From NCBI RefSeq assembly GCF_023555385.1, contig NZ_JAJSED010000001.1:124001-188000 (forward strand): DNA of 64,000 bases, read 5' to 3'. The notes under the pieces were generated by a model. That model had not been told where the DNA came from, did no database searches, and saw only the letters and a program-made list of their open reading frames with translations. Of the stretch, positions 12,155-25,443 are shown piece after piece (the stretch's first letter is position 1; each line of letters starts with the position of its first letter). Origin of the DNA: Guyparkeria hydrothermalis. GTDB taxonomy: Bacteria > Pseudomonadota > Gammaproteobacteria > Halothiobacillales > Halothiobacillaceae. A program made the translations under genes and the position numbers.

Positions 12155-12306
12155 GTCATTCCCGCGAAAGCGGGAATCCAGGGATCGGAGCCATGTCGTG
12201 CTTGGTTAGCCGACACTCGAGAGAAGCCCGAGGTGCTTGCGGGTAGGTGCGGCCTTATTGGCTTCGTTGGGGGCTTTTGTGGATTCCCGCCTGCGCGGGA
12301 ATGACG
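12155..12306. repeat. Inverted doublet of 20-bp palindromes (copies 1 and 2)
   Basis: Copy 1 (12158-12177) reads ATTCCC-N8-GGGAAT in forward orientation (preceded by GTC, followed by CCA). Copy 2 (12283-12302) is in reverse orientation. The centres are 125 bp apart. The core fits the shape of neisserial dRS3 repeats (ATTCCC-N8-GGGAAT). The pair fills the spacer between the ABC permease gene and the convergent DUF488 gene. Confidence 0.85.
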
Positions 12307-16827: not shown

Positions 16828-18030
16828 GGTCGGCTTCCGAGAAAGAGATGTCACCGAGTGTATCGCCGGCAATCATATGCCGGGTGACAACGATATGACG
16901 GTATGCCCCCTCCCGCCAGCTGGCCGTCATTCACCTGGACCTGTCCGCGCAGAATCCAGCTACCAAAGCCCCAGCCCCCCTATCATCCCCGGCGCACGGA
17001 AAGCCCCGTCATCCCCGTGCACGCATCTGCCATTCCTGCTCACGACTGGTTCTGTCATGGCAGGGGCAAGTCCAGCCACTGCCGTCATTCCAGCGGCAAG
17101 GTCACCTACTGTCGTCATTCCAGCCGCAAGATCACCCACTGTCGTCATTCCCGCGCAGGCGGGAATCTAGACAACGAAGCCATCCACCCCCGTCATTCCC
17201 GCGTAAGCGGGAATCCAGAAAACGAAGTCGCACCACACTCGGTTGGCACCAAGGCAGAACACGTCCGAAAGTGCCCACTCGGATAATCAGCCGCAGAGGC
17301 TGCCCAGACCTTCCATGGATCCCCGCATCCGCGGGAATGACGGCCCTTTTGGACGGTGAGGACAAGTAGCGTTGGTGGTGCTCCGTCGCTCGTCATGAAA
17401 GCCCCGATCAAACACGGGCGGGAAAGAGGAAGCCAACGGATCGGAAAGATGAACCAGGAGTAACCATCTCCCGTCGTTCCCGCGCACGCGGGAACCCAAC
17501 GATCGAAGCCATCCCAGCACCGTCACCCCCGCCCGCGATAGGAGGGCGAACCCGCAACCGAAGCCACCCCAGCCTGTCGCCCCGCAAAAGCATGTCCCCA
17601 TGAAAACGGGGGACGGGAATCCAGGGATCGAAGCCATCCCCGTCCCCCGTCATTCCCGCGTAGGCGGGGATCCAGTGAACGAACCCGCCTCACGCCCGGC
17701 CGGCAATAACGCAGGAGATGTCCCGAAGTGCCCGCCTAAAGAACCAACAGGAGCGGCCTTGTGAGCCCCTCCATGGATCCCCCCGTTACCCGTCATTCCC
17801 GCGCAAGCGGGAAACCAGTGAACGAACCCGCCCCGTCCCGACGTGCCTGCCTACAGAGTCAACAGAACCGGCCTCGTCAGCCCTTCCATGGATCCCCGCG
17901 TTCGCGGGAATGACGATATCGGGGAACACGAATGTTGCCTATGCAACCCCTGACCAAGGCGTTCTGCCCACCTCAAACCCGCATCACTGTGCCACCCGGG
18001 CATAAAACAAAAAATTTTTCACCCAAAAAC
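16828..18030. repeat. 1.2-kb spacer filled with palindromic repeats (seven copies) and tandem repeats
   Basis: No gene is supported here. Seven 20-bp palindromes of the ATTCCC-N8-GGGAAT type occur at 17147-17166, 17195-17214, 17319-17338 (reverse), 17476-17495, 17652-17671, 17795-17814 and 17892-17911 (reverse). The pairs 17195/17319 and 17795/17892 are inverted doublets with centres 124 and 97 bp apart. The sequence between doublets is itself repeated: a block ending CCATGGATCCCC occurs near 17310-17324, 17770-17782 and 17885-17897 with related flanks. This points to local duplication of a larger unit. Confidence 0.85.
17051..17150. repeat. 30-bp tandem direct repeat, about three and a third units
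   Basis: Units of 30 bp at 17081-17110 and 17111-17140 are nearly identical. Each begins GYCGTCATTCCAGC and ends CACCYACT. A more diverged unit precedes them at 17051-17080. The array runs directly into the palindrome at 17147, whose left arm replaces the next unit. Confidence 0.75.
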
Positions 18031-19684: not shown

Positions 19685-20083
19685 ATGATGAGCTCTGAAT
19701 CCACCATCTCAGATGCCCTTGGCAAGATGCCAAGCCTTTATCCCAGCGCTCGCGCGGCTTCGGCCGGCGAGCGCTCTTCTGTGTCCGGGCCATCCGTTTC
19801 GGCAAGCAATTTGCAGGGCATTCGGCCCCGCAACGAGTCTAATGAGGCGAATGGTCTGGACCGGGAAGCGCTGGAGGCCAAGCTGGCCGAGCTCGAAGAG
19901 CTGGTCCAGTCGCGCCAGCGCGACCTGTCCTTTTCGGTCGATGACGACACGGGTCGCACGGTCGTCAAGGTAATCAACGCGCGGACCGACGAGGTCGTGC
20001 GCCAGATTCCGTCCGAGGAGATCCTGTCGATCGCCCGGCGGATCGAGAACGGGGAGGGGGGCATGCTCGAGCTCGAGGCTTGA
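19685..20083 (+). CDS. flaG: FlaG family flagellar protein
   Basis: A small protein (132 aa) of polar flagellar systems. FlaG affects filament length in Vibrio and Pseudomonas relatives. The C-terminal domain is typical: LSFSVDDDTGRTVVKVIN followed by VVRQIPSEEIL. The N-terminal half is low-complexity and linker-like. Two adjacent ATGs (19685 and 19688) follow a strong AGGAGG at 19675-19680; the second has the better spacing. It lies between fliC and fliD as in many polar-flagellated gammaproteobacteria. Confidence 0.93.
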   Translation: MMSSESTISDALGKMPSLYPSARAASAGERSSVSGPSVSASNLQGIRPRNESNEANGLDREALEAKLAELEELVQSRQRDLSFSVDDDTGRTVVKVINARTDEVVRQIPSEEILSIARRIENGEGGMLELEA

Positions 20084-20131
20084 GCAGTATCCCCACAAGC
20101 TGGCATTACACGGTAATTGAGGTAACACGAC

Positions 20132-21553
20132 ATGGCGATCACCAGTACCGGCATTGGTTCCGGCATTGATGTAGGCGGCATCGTCAGCCAATTGGTTGCC
20201 GCGGAAGGCCAGCCTGCCCGCAATCGCCTGGATCGGCGCGAAGCGCAGACCCAGGCAACCATTTCCGCGTTGGGGGGGCTCAAAAGTGCCCTCAATGAGT
20301 TCCAGAGCGCGCTGGGCGCCCTCAAGGACTTGGACTCGTTCCAGGCCCGCAAGGCGACTAGCGGCGATTCGTCGATCTTCACCGCCACGGCGGACGAGAC
20401 CGCCAGTGCCGGCAGCTACCAGATCGAGGTGGCGCAACTCGCACAGGGTCAGAAACAGGCGAGCGGTTACTTTGCCTCGGCGGATGCGACGGTCGGCACC
20501 GGCACGCTCACGTTCGATGTCGGTGGCAATAGCTTCGATATCACCGTCGATGCGTCCAACAACACGCTGGCCGGCATCCGCGATGCGATCAACGCTTCGC
20601 CGGACAACACCGGTGTGACGGCGACGACTGTCAATGTCGATGACCCGAACAATCCGGGGAGTACGGTCAGCCGGTTGATTCTGACCGCCGATAAGCCCGG
20701 CGAAGCCAATGCCGTCACAGTTTCCGCGACCGACGACGACGGCACGAACGCCGATGCGGCGGGCCTGTCGCAACTCTCCACCGCCTCCGGCGAGCTGGAT
20801 CTGCTGGAGCAAGCCCAGGACGCGATCATCCGCATCGACGGGCAGAACGTGACCCGTTCGAGCAACAGCATCAACGATGCCATCGACGGCGTGACATTGG
20901 AGCTAAAGAAATCCGATCTCGGGTCGACAAATACCTTGGATGTGGCGCTGAACACCGGCGCGGTGAAGAGCAAGGTGGAAAGCTTCATCAAGGCCTATAA
21001 CGGCCTGGCGCAGACGACCAACCAGCTCTCCTCCTACGACCCGGAAACGGGGCGGGCCGGTGCGCTCCAAGGGGATTCAACCCTGCGGACGGTCAGCAGC
21101 CAGATCCGACGGGAGATGAGTGACACGGTCGACGGCATCAATGGTGTCTTCGACAACCTGGCCACCATCGGTGTCGAGACGCAGCGTGACGGCACGCTCA
21201 AGCTCGACGGCGCACAACTCGACGAGGCGATGGAAGCGGACTTCGATGCCATCGGCCAGATGTTCGCCTCCGATGACGGCTACGCCACGCGACTGGACGC
21301 ATTGGTCGACAACTATGTGGGGTTCAACGGGATTCTGGACAGCCGGACGCAGAGCCTGAACAACCGCATTGATGACATCAATGACCAGCGCGAGGATTTG
21401 AGTCGCCGGCTGTCGAGTCTTGAATCCCGCCTGTTGGCGGAATTCAACGCGATGGACCAGATCGTCGGGCAGCTGAACTCGACCGGAAGCTACCTCTCCC
21501 AGCAGTTGAGCAACCTGCCGTTCAATAACCTGGCAGGCGGCAACAAGAAATAA
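20132..21553 (+). CDS. fliD: Flagellar hook-associated protein 2 (filament cap)
   Basis: Forms the cap that folds flagellin at the filament tip. The 473-aa protein has the FliD N-terminal domain (GIGSGIDVGGIVSQLVAAE), a variable central domain, and the FliD C-terminal domain (VKSKVESFIKAYNGLAQTTNQL). A terminal coiled coil follows, with IDDINDQREDLSRRL near residue 415 and FNAMDQIVGQLNSTGSYL near the end. It follows flaG by 48 bp and precedes the chaperone gene fliS by 31 bp. Confidence 0.95.
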   Translation: MAITSTGIGSGIDVGGIVSQLVAAEGQPARNRLDRREAQTQATISALGGLKSALNEFQSALGALKDLDSFQARKATSGDSSIFTATADETASAGSYQIEVAQLAQGQKQASGYFASADATVGTGTLTFDVGGNSFDITVDASNNTLAGIRDAINASPDNTGVTATTVNVDDPNNPGSTVSRLILTADKPGEANAVTVSATDDDGTNADAAGLSQLSTASGELDLLEQAQDAIIRIDGQNVTRSSNSINDAIDGVTLELKKSDLGSTNTLDVALNTGAVKSKVESFIKAYNGLAQTTNQLSSYDPETGRAGALQGDSTLRTVSSQIRREMSDTVDGINGVFDNLATIGVETQRDGTLKLDGAQLDEAMEADFDAIGQMFASDDGYATRLDALVDNYVGFNGILDSRTQSLNNRIDDINDQREDLSRRLSSLESRLLAEFNAMDQIVGQLNSTGSYLSQQLSNLPFNNLAGGNKK

Positions 21554-21584
21554 CTCGGCCTGACCTGAAAAGAGGGGAAACGCC

Positions 21585-22016
21585 ATGTACGCCAATGCCG
21601 CATTCGGTGCCCAGCAATACGCCAACGTCGGGGTGCGCTCCGGCATCGAGGATGCCTCGCCGCACCGCCTGATCCAGATGCTGTTCGAAGGCGGCCTGCA
21701 GCGCCTTGCCACCGCCAAGGGTGCCATGCAGCGCGAGGACCGCGCCGCCAAGGGCGAACAGCTCGGCAAGGCTATCGGTATTATCGGTGGGCTGCGCGAG
21801 TCCCTTGACCCGGAGGCCGGCGAGCTCTCCGCGAACCTTGAAAACTTGTACGCCTACATGCAGCGTCGCCTGCTGGAAGCGAACATCGAATCCAGCATCG
21901 AGAAGGTCGAGGAAGTCTCCGGCCTGCTGCGCGACATCAAGGAAGCCTGGGACGGCATCGCCCCGGAACAGGTCAGCAACAAGGCCGAGTCCGATGACGT
22001 TCGCCAATCTGCCTGA
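21585..22016 (+). CDS. fliS: Flagellin export chaperone FliS
   Basis: A cytoplasmic chaperone that binds the flagellin C-terminus and prevents early polymerisation. The 143-aa helical protein has the family's SPHRLIQMLFEGGLQRL and the later EEVSGLLRDIKEAWDGI. The ATG follows a GAGGGG box. It overlaps fliT at its 3' end by 23 bp. Confidence 0.95.
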   Translation: MYANAAFGAQQYANVGVRSGIEDASPHRLIQMLFEGGLQRLATAKGAMQREDRAAKGEQLGKAIGIIGGLRESLDPEAGELSANLENLYAYMQRRLLEANIESSIEKVEEVSGLLRDIKEAWDGIAPEQVSNKAESDDVRQSA

Positions 22017-22317
22017 GAAGGCGCAGAACCTGTTGGCCGTCAGCCAAGGCATGCTGGCCTCGGCCAAGGCGGATGACTGGGAAGCGGTGATCGAGGCGGA
22101 GGAAATCCGCCGCCCGATGATCGACGAGGTCGTCGCCCAGGGTGCGCCCAACGATGCGCCACCGGCTGACTGGATGCGTGAACTGCTCGAGGAGCTGCAG
22201 ACCCTCAACGACCGCGTGGTCGAGCTGGGCGAGGAGCGCAAGGCACAGATTCGTAGCGAGATCAGTGAGGTGCAGACCGGCAGCAAGGCCGTGAAGGCCT
22301 ACGACCCGGAGCGGTGA
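21994..22317 (+). CDS. fliT: FliT-like flagellar chaperone
   Basis: A 107-aa all-helical cytoplasmic protein immediately after fliS, in the position where FliT (chaperone of the FliD cap) is found. Sequence: an N-terminal helix around EKAQNLLAVSQGMLASA, then DWEAVIEAEEIRRPMI, then two amphipathic helices. FliT proteins are poorly conserved, so the assignment rests on length, helicity, the DWE motif and position. The ATG at 21994 lies inside fliS in another frame, a 23-bp overlap indicating translational coupling. Confidence 0.78.
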   Translation: MTFANLPEKAQNLLAVSQGMLASAKADDWEAVIEAEEIRRPMIDEVVAQGAPNDAPPADWMRELLEELQTLNDRVVELGEERKAQIRSEISEVQTGSKAVKAYDPER

Positions 22318-22370: not shown

Positions 22371-22404
22371 CCTGCGTTCCCGGGGAGGCGGTGGCTCCGT
22401 TCAC

Positions 22405-22557
22405 TGGATTCCCGCTTGTGCGGGAATGACGACCTTTTACGTTTCAACCAAACCGTCAAACCAGCGGCTCCGATCAATCTGATCAGGAACGAGGTGGCGC
22501 GCCATATTGACGTCGGCGCTACCACCTGACCGTCATTCCCGCGCAAGCGGGAATCCA
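22405..22557. repeat. Inverted doublet of 20-bp palindromes, GIY-YIG 3' side
   Basis: Copies at 22408-22427 (reverse) and 22535-22554 (forward) have centres 127 bp apart. The second copy ends 41 bp from the stop codon of the GIY-YIG gene. The interior does not look like a gene. Confidence 0.85.
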
Positions 22558-22595
22558 GCCCGGCCTTCGGTTGGCAACAAAGGCTGAAGGTCGCA

Positions 22596-22883
22596 TCAAA
22601 CGACGGAGTCATGCAAATCCCGCCAGTCGGGATTGAAGGCCTCGATCAATTCGATCTTCCATACCCGCCGCCACTTCTTGATTGCCTTCTCCCGGGCAAT
22701 GGCGCCTTCCATGGTCGGGTGGGTTTCGTACCAAACGAGGGTGTGCACGCCATAGCGGCTGGTGAAGCCTTCTACCAGATCGTTCTGGTGCTGCCAGACG
22801 CGTTGTGGGAGGTTGCTGGTCACGCCCACATAAAGCGTGCCGTTGCGTCGGCTGGCGAGGAGGTAGACGCAGGGTTGTTTCAT
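22596..22883 (-). CDS. GIY-YIG nuclease domain protein, 95 aa
   Basis: A small stand-alone GIY-YIG endonuclease-fold protein. The motif appears as CVYLLASRRNGTLYVGVT (VYL in place of GIY, YVG in place of YIG). The catalytic Arg lies in LPQRVWQHQ, and the Glu in HPTMEGAIAREKAIKKWRR. It has no DNA-binding extension, so it is not a classical homing nuclease; the substrate is unknown. The gene is bracketed by inverted doublets of the palindromic repeat on both sides (ending 41 bp and beginning 93 bp away). This raises the possibility that nuclease and repeat are functionally linked, which is inference. Confidence 0.9.
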   Translation of the reverse strand: MKQPCVYLLASRRNGTLYVGVTSNLPQRVWQHQNDLVEGFTSRYGVHTLVWYETHPTMEGAIAREKAIKKWRRVWKIELIEAFNPDWRDLHDSVV

Positions 22884-22973
22884 TCCTTTGAAACTCCTGG
22901 TCGGGTTGAATAGGGAGCGGGAGCTTTCCGTGCTCCCCTGAGATTACTGGGTTGCTCCGGTAGCTTCGTTTTC

Positions 22974-23126
22974 TGGATTCCCGCTTTCGCGGGAATGACG
23001 ATCAGGGGGCATGATCGAGCACGGCGTAAACGGCAGACCGATACGCTCTCTTTAATCGGAGCCCGCCCCTTCGAAGTGCTGTGTCCAACCTCAAGAAACC
23101 GTCATTCCCGCGGACGCGGGAATCCA
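22974..23126. repeat. Inverted doublet of 20-bp palindromes, GIY-YIG 5' side
   Basis: Copies at 22977-22996 (reverse) and 23104-23123 (forward) have centres 127 bp apart, the same spacing as the doublet on the other side of the GIY-YIG gene. Both lie in the 318-bp spacer before the KPR-like gene. Nothing else was seen in the spacer. Confidence 0.85.
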
Positions 23127-23201
23127 GGAAGCCGTCGCTGACCGATCATCGTTCGACCCTAAATAACAGTACGGCCGCATGGCAGTCTCAACCTTGGGCG
23201 C

Positions 23202-25300: not shown

Positions 25301-25443
25301 GTCATTCCCGCGAATGCGGGAATCCACGGGCACGTGGTCCGGGCTACCCGTCGAGCCAGGCCCTGGCGGTGACTTTGGAGGAAGGGGTCCTTCGTCCATT
25401 CTGCGGCTTCGATTTCTGGATTCCCGCGTTCGCGGGAATGACG
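25301..25443. repeat. Inverted doublet of 20-bp palindromes upstream of roxA
   Basis: Copies at 25304-25323 (forward) and 25420-25439 (reverse) have centres 116 bp apart. They occupy the spacer between the roxA start and the sqr terminator. The 25195-25502 stretch holds no other feature I can support. Confidence 0.85.

Follow-up and report, generated by a model that had tools for sequence, protein, structure and literature searches.

Our sequence comparisons lead us to favor, with somewhat better than even confidence, the reading that the CGTC superfamily of REPs has a 95-aa GIY-YIG nuclease as its dedicated partner and that the nuclease gene, together with one REP on each side, makes up a mobile unit. 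Genes of this nuclease subfamily are bracketed by tagged palindromes of prevailing polarity and matching stem type, and from genome to genome they track the presence and number of such repeats. One unit is present at a site where related records lack it, and near-identical copies of another are found within a single genome. The starting point was a window, by which we mean the whole analyzed stretch of 64,000 nucleotides from Guyparkeria hydrothermalis (contig NZ_JAJSED010000001.1, positions 124,001 to 188,000 of the forward strand).

The nuclease gene occupies positions 22596..22883 on the negative strand and is supported by its open reading frame, a match to PF01541 (Pfam; E = 6.3e-16), and intact catalytic residues. 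Palindromes of the form ATTCCCGC-N4-GCGGGAAT start around it at 22408, 22535, 22977, and 23104, and in all four copies the full repeat, with its asymmetric flanks, reads CGTC-ATTCCCGC-N4-GCGGGAAT-CCAG. The REP adjoining the 3' end of the gene (22531..22558, positive strand) and the REP adjoining its 5' end (22973..23000, negative strand) both have the tag outward and CCAG toward the gene. Each is accompanied by an outer REP whose tag points back (22404..22431, negative strand, and 23100..23127, positive strand, respectively), making each pair a tags-inward doublet. The centers are 127 bp apart in both doublets, and the palindromes lie 41 bp from the gene at its stop side and 93 bp at its start side; a first-pass annotation had described this layout, and it proved exact to the base. 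Both doublets have spacers of 99 bp, and a comparison of these found no common repeat. Folding as DNA gave each of the four REPs an 8-bp stem and a 4-nt loop at -8 to -9.1 kcal/mol.

The protein is predicted to have the GIY-YIG fold with the catalytic Tyr, Tyr, Glu, Asn, and Arg that define the superfamily. Its structure model reached a pLDDT of 96.6, and the closest solved structures were UPF0213 proteins, the branched-DNA nuclease Slx1, and the N-terminal domain of UvrC; 1zg2 was the only structure to which Foldseek assigned E < 0.001. Across 38 aligned sequences including that of the window (L053, L021, L030, and L056 were left out), Y7, Y18, G20, H32, E65, and N84 were invariant and R28 nearly so. 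A search of 50,697 phage records gave no match to the nuclease, and we reject a phage origin on this basis; 42 matching stretches were found in 2.9 million viral contigs.

The window contains 10 exact palindromes, compared to 0.00 in 100 shuffles. The whole-genome count that the first-pass annotation had suggested yielded 11 exact palindromes in 2.39 Mb (one contig), 10 of them clustered near the gene, at 136158-149439. This 13.3-kb stretch amounts to 0.56% of the genome, and the probability of finding 10 out of 11 sites there under uniform placement is ~3e-22, for a stretch that was picked after the sites had been seen. Besides the gene-side copies, the window holds a tags-outward doublet at 12158..12177 (positive strand) and 12283..12302 (negative strand), 125 bp apart; a cluster of two palindromes at 17147..17166 and 17195..17214, both on the positive strand; five more copies with one or two mismatches, beginning at 17319, 17476, 17652, 17795, and 17892 (17319..17911, no strand assigned); and another tags-outward doublet at 25304..25323 (positive strand) and 25420..25439 (negative strand). 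Doublet spacing across the window is 116-127 bp. The doublet at 25304..25439 is bordered by genes that we take by eye to be cupin-like and sulfide-quinone-reductase-like (sqr). It was found in some relatives and is missing in G002 and G003, and the cupin-sqr spacer is too diverged between species to give exact doublet edges. The RAYT profile NF047646 and the Y1 transposase profile Y1_Tnp (PF01797) had no match in the window genome, and we reject a RAYT as the mover there.

The CGTC REP superfamily was defined in five phyla by Di Nocera, De Gregorio, and Rocco in 2013 (PMC3733652). Its family CGTC-1, which includes Neisseria dRS3, is characterized there by a CGTC tag, an 8-bp stem starting with AT, a 4-nt loop, a CCA tail, and organization into dimers. 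By sequence, we assign the window repeats to CGTC-1: an unpaired CGTC tag is found at one end of the four gene-side copies, the window repeats have the 8-bp stem starting with AT, the 4-nt loop, and the CCA tail, and the doublets are dimers. The family is also distinguished by a high copy number, and in this respect the window genome, with its 11 exact copies, differs; other genomes that carry the gene reach as many as 224 sites. According to the available part of the 2013 survey, CGTC REPs "apparently lack a dedicated transposase," and no tyrosine transposase gene was found between the repeats (PMC3733652).

We searched for relatives of the nuclease in one genome per species and kept the best 80 of 144. 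By record title, these 80 belong to several classes of Proteobacteria, to Chloroflexi, Nitrospirae, and Phycisphaerae, to Sulfuricurvum, and to others, and identity to the window protein reaches 75% in another phylum (Chloroflexota by record title). Perfect GTC-tagged REPs were found on both sides of 47 of the 80 genes and on any side of 62, whereas among 10,903 intervals placed at random in these loci only 19 and 441, respectively, were so flanked. With one stem mismatch admitted and a CC or CT tail demanded, the corresponding counts were 56 and 68 of 80 relatives, and 16 and 295 of 5,449 random intervals. Twelve relatives had no tagged stem, at up to one mismatch, on either side; most of these 12 loci contain longer GTC-tagged stem-loops by eye, for example GTCATTGCGAGCGAAGCGAAGCAATCC. 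A looser tagged-stem motif was present on any side of 72 of the 80 relatives, in 388 of 3,297 random intervals, and at 0 of 40 control GIY-YIG genes. Loci drawn later had tagged REPs on both sides in 15 of 28 and 9 of 29 cases and on any side in 22 of 28 and 17 of 29, two of the 29 having the gene core in common with the first 80.

A palindrome search that was blind to sequence revealed that 20-bp stem-loops flank many of the relatives, with stems unlike those of the window: ATTCCGGC, ATTCCTGC, ATTCCAGC, ATCCCCGC, ATCCCGGC, ATCCCTGC, ACCCCGGC, and GTTCCCGC. Perfect stems of at least 8 bp within 300 bp were present on both sides of 62 of 145 family genes (90 upstream and 74 downstream), the 145 being 151 family loci minus six with short flanks. 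The same survey of 40 control GIY-YIG genes found none with such stems on both sides, three with stems upstream, and none with stems downstream. Seven near-duplicates (L002-L005, L010, L055, and L056) were dropped from these counts as well as from the side-matching and bit-score counts below. At L065, L073, L077, L079, and L088, the nuclease family is flanked by a GTCATTGCGAGCGAAGCGAAGCAATCCAG repeat. Because of this neighborhood, and because its tag and tail are built on the same logic, the repeat may belong to the CGTC REPs. The nuclease gene is present in two copies within one locus at L016, L018, and L126.

The tie to repeats is confined to the closer nuclease subfamily. Palindromes shared by both sides were found at 62 of 114 genes scoring at least 110 bits and at 2 of 32 scoring less; the 110-bit limit was chosen after this split was known, and the split undercounts loci at which the open reading frame extends beyond the downstream REP, for which later counts use the aligned end. 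The tagged motif was found on both sides of 2 of 26 relatives below 110 bits. The first-pass annotation had named homologous loci without nearby repeats as a finding against the link. Among the 80 best relatives just two, L080 and L089, fail both tagged searches, and each still holds palindromes; relatives below 110 bits mostly lack repeats.

Twelve of 33 matching annotated records were examined as named examples. In Neisseria gonorrhoeae, the gene lies between dRS3-type palindromes, several per side, which bears out a likeness to dRS3 that had been remarked on from the window repeats. The gene of Azospirillum lipoferum 4B has ATCCCCGC REPs and is situated between sufB and sufC, and that of Aeromonas caviae is flanked by REPs on both sides. 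Longer stems with CTTG loops are found on both sides of the gene in two Shinella records, Rhizobium sp. CIAT894, Sphingobium, and Novosphingobium, and ATTCCTGTG-type stems accompany the gene of Sinorhizobium meliloti. In Rhizobium tumorigenes and Photobacterium, perfect palindromes occur only downstream of the gene, ~200 bp off. Homology between Sinorhizobium and Rhizobium copies extends little past the gene; the Rhizobium copy used in this comparison has no close REP on its upstream side, and a search of close plasmids for a Rhizobium empty site returned flank-only matches. Imperfect GTCATTCTGAG...GAATCT repeats flank the Planktothrix gene (L236) on both sides by eye. This locus, on a Planktothrix agardhii plasmid, has GTCATTCTGAGTGAAACGAAGAATCT repeats around a 48%-identical relative and is a possible cyanobacterial member of the system.

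The two sides of a gene tend to carry the same kind of repeat in a prevailing orientation. The stem variant was the same on both sides at 51 of 58 loci, whereas 2,000 side shuffles averaged 17.7 and never exceeded 27, and 20 of the 34 loci at which the nearest palindromes were not both of the commonest type still matched. The nearest upstream tag pointed outward in 60 cases and inward in 17 of 82, with 5 untagged, and the nearest downstream tag pointed outward in 44 and inward in 16 of 65, again with 5 untagged. A phylum sample gave 10 outward versus 1 inward upstream and 8 versus 7 downstream. The CCA tail was present in 280 of 336 repeats, all selected by tag and stem only. When stem variants were placed on the protein tree (101 labeled of 195; 195 of 199 proteins were kept, those of <70 residues being removed), 30 changes were required, whereas 200 shuffles averaged 48 and never fell below 44. 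A scan for covariation between nuclease residues and stems produced no lead, each test having between one and three independent pairs among the matches listed. Around 167 REPs, half REPs consisting of GTC and most of the first stem arm numbered 33 next to the tag and 8 next to the tail. In the flanks of L021, L050, L110, and L151, half REPs stand in rows beside the tags of complete REPs.

Gene and repeats were then compared across 232 genomes of the class, 33 of which carried a close gene (at least 110 bits). The searched CGTC REP type was present in 28 of these 33 genomes and in 38 of the 199 without the gene (p = 2.9e-13, kinship ignored); at this one-repeat threshold, part of the association is supplied by the gene's own flanks. 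At least 10 repeats were found in 16 of 33 and 9 of 199 genomes, respectively (p = 5.9e-10, kinship ignored), and lowering the gene limit to 57 bits gave 36 of 51 versus 30 of 181 genomes with any repeat. Five of the 33 genomes with a close gene had no searched repeat. For the alphaproteobacterial repeat type, examined in 199 genomes of the phylum with the gene defined by at least 74 bits with the family profile, the gene was found in 9 of 10 genomes having the type versus 46 of 189 without it (kinship ignored). The correlation between gene and repeats that the first-pass annotation had asked for was obtained for both repeat types, and its proposal that a GIY-YIG enzyme instead of a RAYT runs the REP system is supported. 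Genome G071 contains eight tags-outward REP doublets on several contigs, with 52 bp between starts, resembling a gene-less two-REP MITE.

The same genomes bear on whether the REPs are moved by a RAYT or some other transposase, with the nuclease gene as a passenger. RAYT-like matches are widespread, occurring in 166 of 232 genomes (113 above the family cut-off), and any repeat is associated with them (57 of 166 genomes with a RAYT and 9 of 66 without; p = 0.0013, kinship ignored); outer inverted repeats in G099, described below, could also be those of another element. We nevertheless consider a passenger gene very improbable. Genomes with at least 10 repeats are not significantly linked with RAYT (21 of 166 versus 4 of 66; p = 0.17, kinship ignored), the window genome lacks a RAYT or Y1_Tnp match, and G070 holds 224 repeats and one close gene without a RAYT; the available part of the CGTC survey likewise reports no tyrosine transposase gene between the repeats (PMC3733652). 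Among RAYT-less genomes, repeats were present in 5 of 5 with the nuclease gene and in 4 of 61 without it.

The genus of the window comprised 11 genomes, three of them incomplete (G005, G006, and G010). Five have the nuclease gene and the repeat cluster in common at a flagellar locus, whose neighboring genes we take, by eye, to be fliD and fliS. In four related genomes, the gene is accompanied by tags-inward doublets spaced 117-134 bp, except for one of 89 bp, and G009 is one-sided; 19 of 23 tagged sites in G004 fall inside one 18-kb stretch around the gene. At L226 in G009, the REP loop encloses a second palindrome, CCCCGCTTTCGCGGGG, like a hairpin inserted into a hairpin. The fliD-fliS region (window 19685-22317) exists in two versions within the genus, with fliD ~43% identical between them, and the nuclease and REP cluster accompany one. 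G001, G002, and G003 have no nuclease gene, and their compared stretches contain two, none, and none of the exact palindromes, respectively. No empty site was obtained from the genus, because these three genomes have a different flagellar region and three more are incomplete. In G001, G002, and G003, fliS is separated from the conserved gene that follows by 8.9-11.8 kb instead of 1.2 kb. Such a difference would fit with gene and repeats having merely come together in common hot spots of mobile or recombining intergenic DNA, the exchanged flagellar region being one example, but a coincidence of this kind is hardly credible in view of the controls (0 of 40 GIY-YIG genes and 19 of 10,903 random intervals), the two-sided stem match, and the tag polarity.

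Two cases bear on mobility. Genome G099 contains three nearly identical gene copies, each on a different contig. On the right side, identity is continuous through the REP up to the GTC tag in all three; on the left side, two copies are alike to the left REP, and the third differs between the left REP and the gene. An outer inverted repeat of ~30 bp, GTTGAATAAATAACCATG..., is found beyond the REPs on both sides in three of three copies (L110, L123, and L124), so the unit there may exceed REP-gene-REP. The REP-gene-REP arrangement between sufB and sufC in Azospirillum lipoferum is missing in four other Azospirillum records, and the gene-less spacers, as compared, contain no tagged REP and have diverged edges. 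Beyond the REPs, the sequences are diverged over ~22 and ~45 bp and for this reason yield no exact unit edges; neither a target-site duplication nor an exact empty site was obtained from these Azospirillum spacers, with their diverged edges, or from the G099 copies.

Both cases speak against a nonmobile function, in which the nuclease would serve the host, or the control of its own expression, by trimming or resolving hairpins or cruciforms of REPs, with the flanking REPs as binding sites. Such a role would agree with the presence of Slx1, a branched-DNA nuclease, among the nearest folds, with the conserved active site, and with host roles proposed earlier for REPs in the available part of the CGTC survey (PMC3733652). 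It fits poorly with the near-identical copies at several sites of G099, with presence or absence in the suf operon, and with a patchy spread in which identity is as high as 75% in a different phylum, and we judge it improbable.

GIY-YIG enzymes hydrolyze DNA and are not known to form a covalent intermediate. The nuclease alone would consequently not join strands, and insertion or copying would fall to host repair or replication after a nick. A mobile REP-gene-REP unit would be laid out as CGTC-hairpin-CCAG ... gene ... CTGG-hairpin-GACG. We infer that the nuclease would bind its own tagged hairpin, probably in single-stranded or extruded form, and would cut at or beside the GTC tag, while solitary and doublet REPs would represent non-autonomous derivatives moved in trans. 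This course of events, from recognition of the own hairpin through cutting at the GTC tag to copying completed by host repair or replication, appears to us probable, if not strongly so. Repeated cuts at the tag, with copying there, may have left the half copies behind.

The main rival to a partner enzyme is a homing gene targeted to REPs: a selfish free-standing endonuclease would cut REPs made otherwise, and host repair would copy its gene between two of them. GIY-YIG genes are classical homing nucleases, as stated in the available part of the superfamily survey (PMC1564403), and the flanking-repeat data are compatible with such targeting. Repeat-rich genomes (at least 10 repeats) without a close gene also exist (9 of 25), although among these G194 has a 94-bit relative and G232 a fragment. 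Homing alone, however, leaves unexplained why the stem type follows the protein and why repeats are more numerous where the gene is present, and it names no maker of the REPs in genomes without a RAYT. We regard it as unlikely.

To a broader and more tentative reading we give slightly less than even weight: the unit would be a new prokaryotic transposable element of ~0.4 kb, with the 95-aa GIY-YIG nuclease as its sole protein and tagged hairpins as its ends, and through its non-autonomous derivatives it would be the source of the CGTC REP superfamily, an analogue of RAYT/REP of independent origin and with another nuclease fold. The element so conceived would include ATTCC, ATCCC, and GTCATTGCGAG... 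stems, 9-bp stems with CTTG loops, and dRS3, in several phyla. How CGTC REPs spread has been an open question since 2013, and with the nuclease as a named candidate enzyme, the question is open to a direct test that needs one small protein and short oligonucleotides. REP biology would, if the candidate is the right one, gain another class of enzyme, unrelated to the first, and an autonomous DNA element of very small size. Our literature search, which covered sources other than subscription papers and preprints, returned no paper joining GIY-YIG with REPs, RAYT, palindromes, flanking repeats, or dRS3 among the matches listed, and those listed for CGTC REPs included none on the link either; papers naming both GIY-YIG and CGTC dealt, by title, with other subjects. 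RAYT, transposase, and GIY are unmentioned in the available part of RepRanger 2025 (PMC12306157), as are palindromes in that of the GIY-YIG superfamily survey (PMC1564403).

Among known systems, UPF0213 proteins (1zg2 and 1ywl) are the solved structures closest to the nuclease in sequence and fold; control GIY-YIG genes, which are low-scoring relatives or of other types, differ in having no two-sided palindromes (0 of 40). Free-standing homing endonucleases of the I-TevI kind combine a GIY-YIG catalytic core with selfish spread. The window protein has the same catalytic core, but at 95 aa it shows no visible separate DNA-binding domain, and its gene lies between complete inverted REPs and tracks their number genome-wide. 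The CGTC REPs as described in the available part of the 2013 survey (PMC3733652) share the tag, the 8-bp stem starting with AT, the 4-nt loop, the CCA tail, and the dimers with the repeats studied here; the difference is that repeats of this kind, of several stem types, are seen here to enclose a nuclease gene. The closest parallel in organization is the REPtron, in which a RAYT (TnpA-REP) is associated with GTAG REPs and REPINs. As in a REPtron, the nuclease gene has inverted REPs of its own type on both sides, singlets and doublets occur elsewhere, and the hairpins bear an unpaired tag. In contrast, the window genome has no RAYT match, the tag is CGTC and not GTAG, and the place of the HUH/Y1 tyrosine transposase is taken by a 95-aa GIY-YIG hydrolase.
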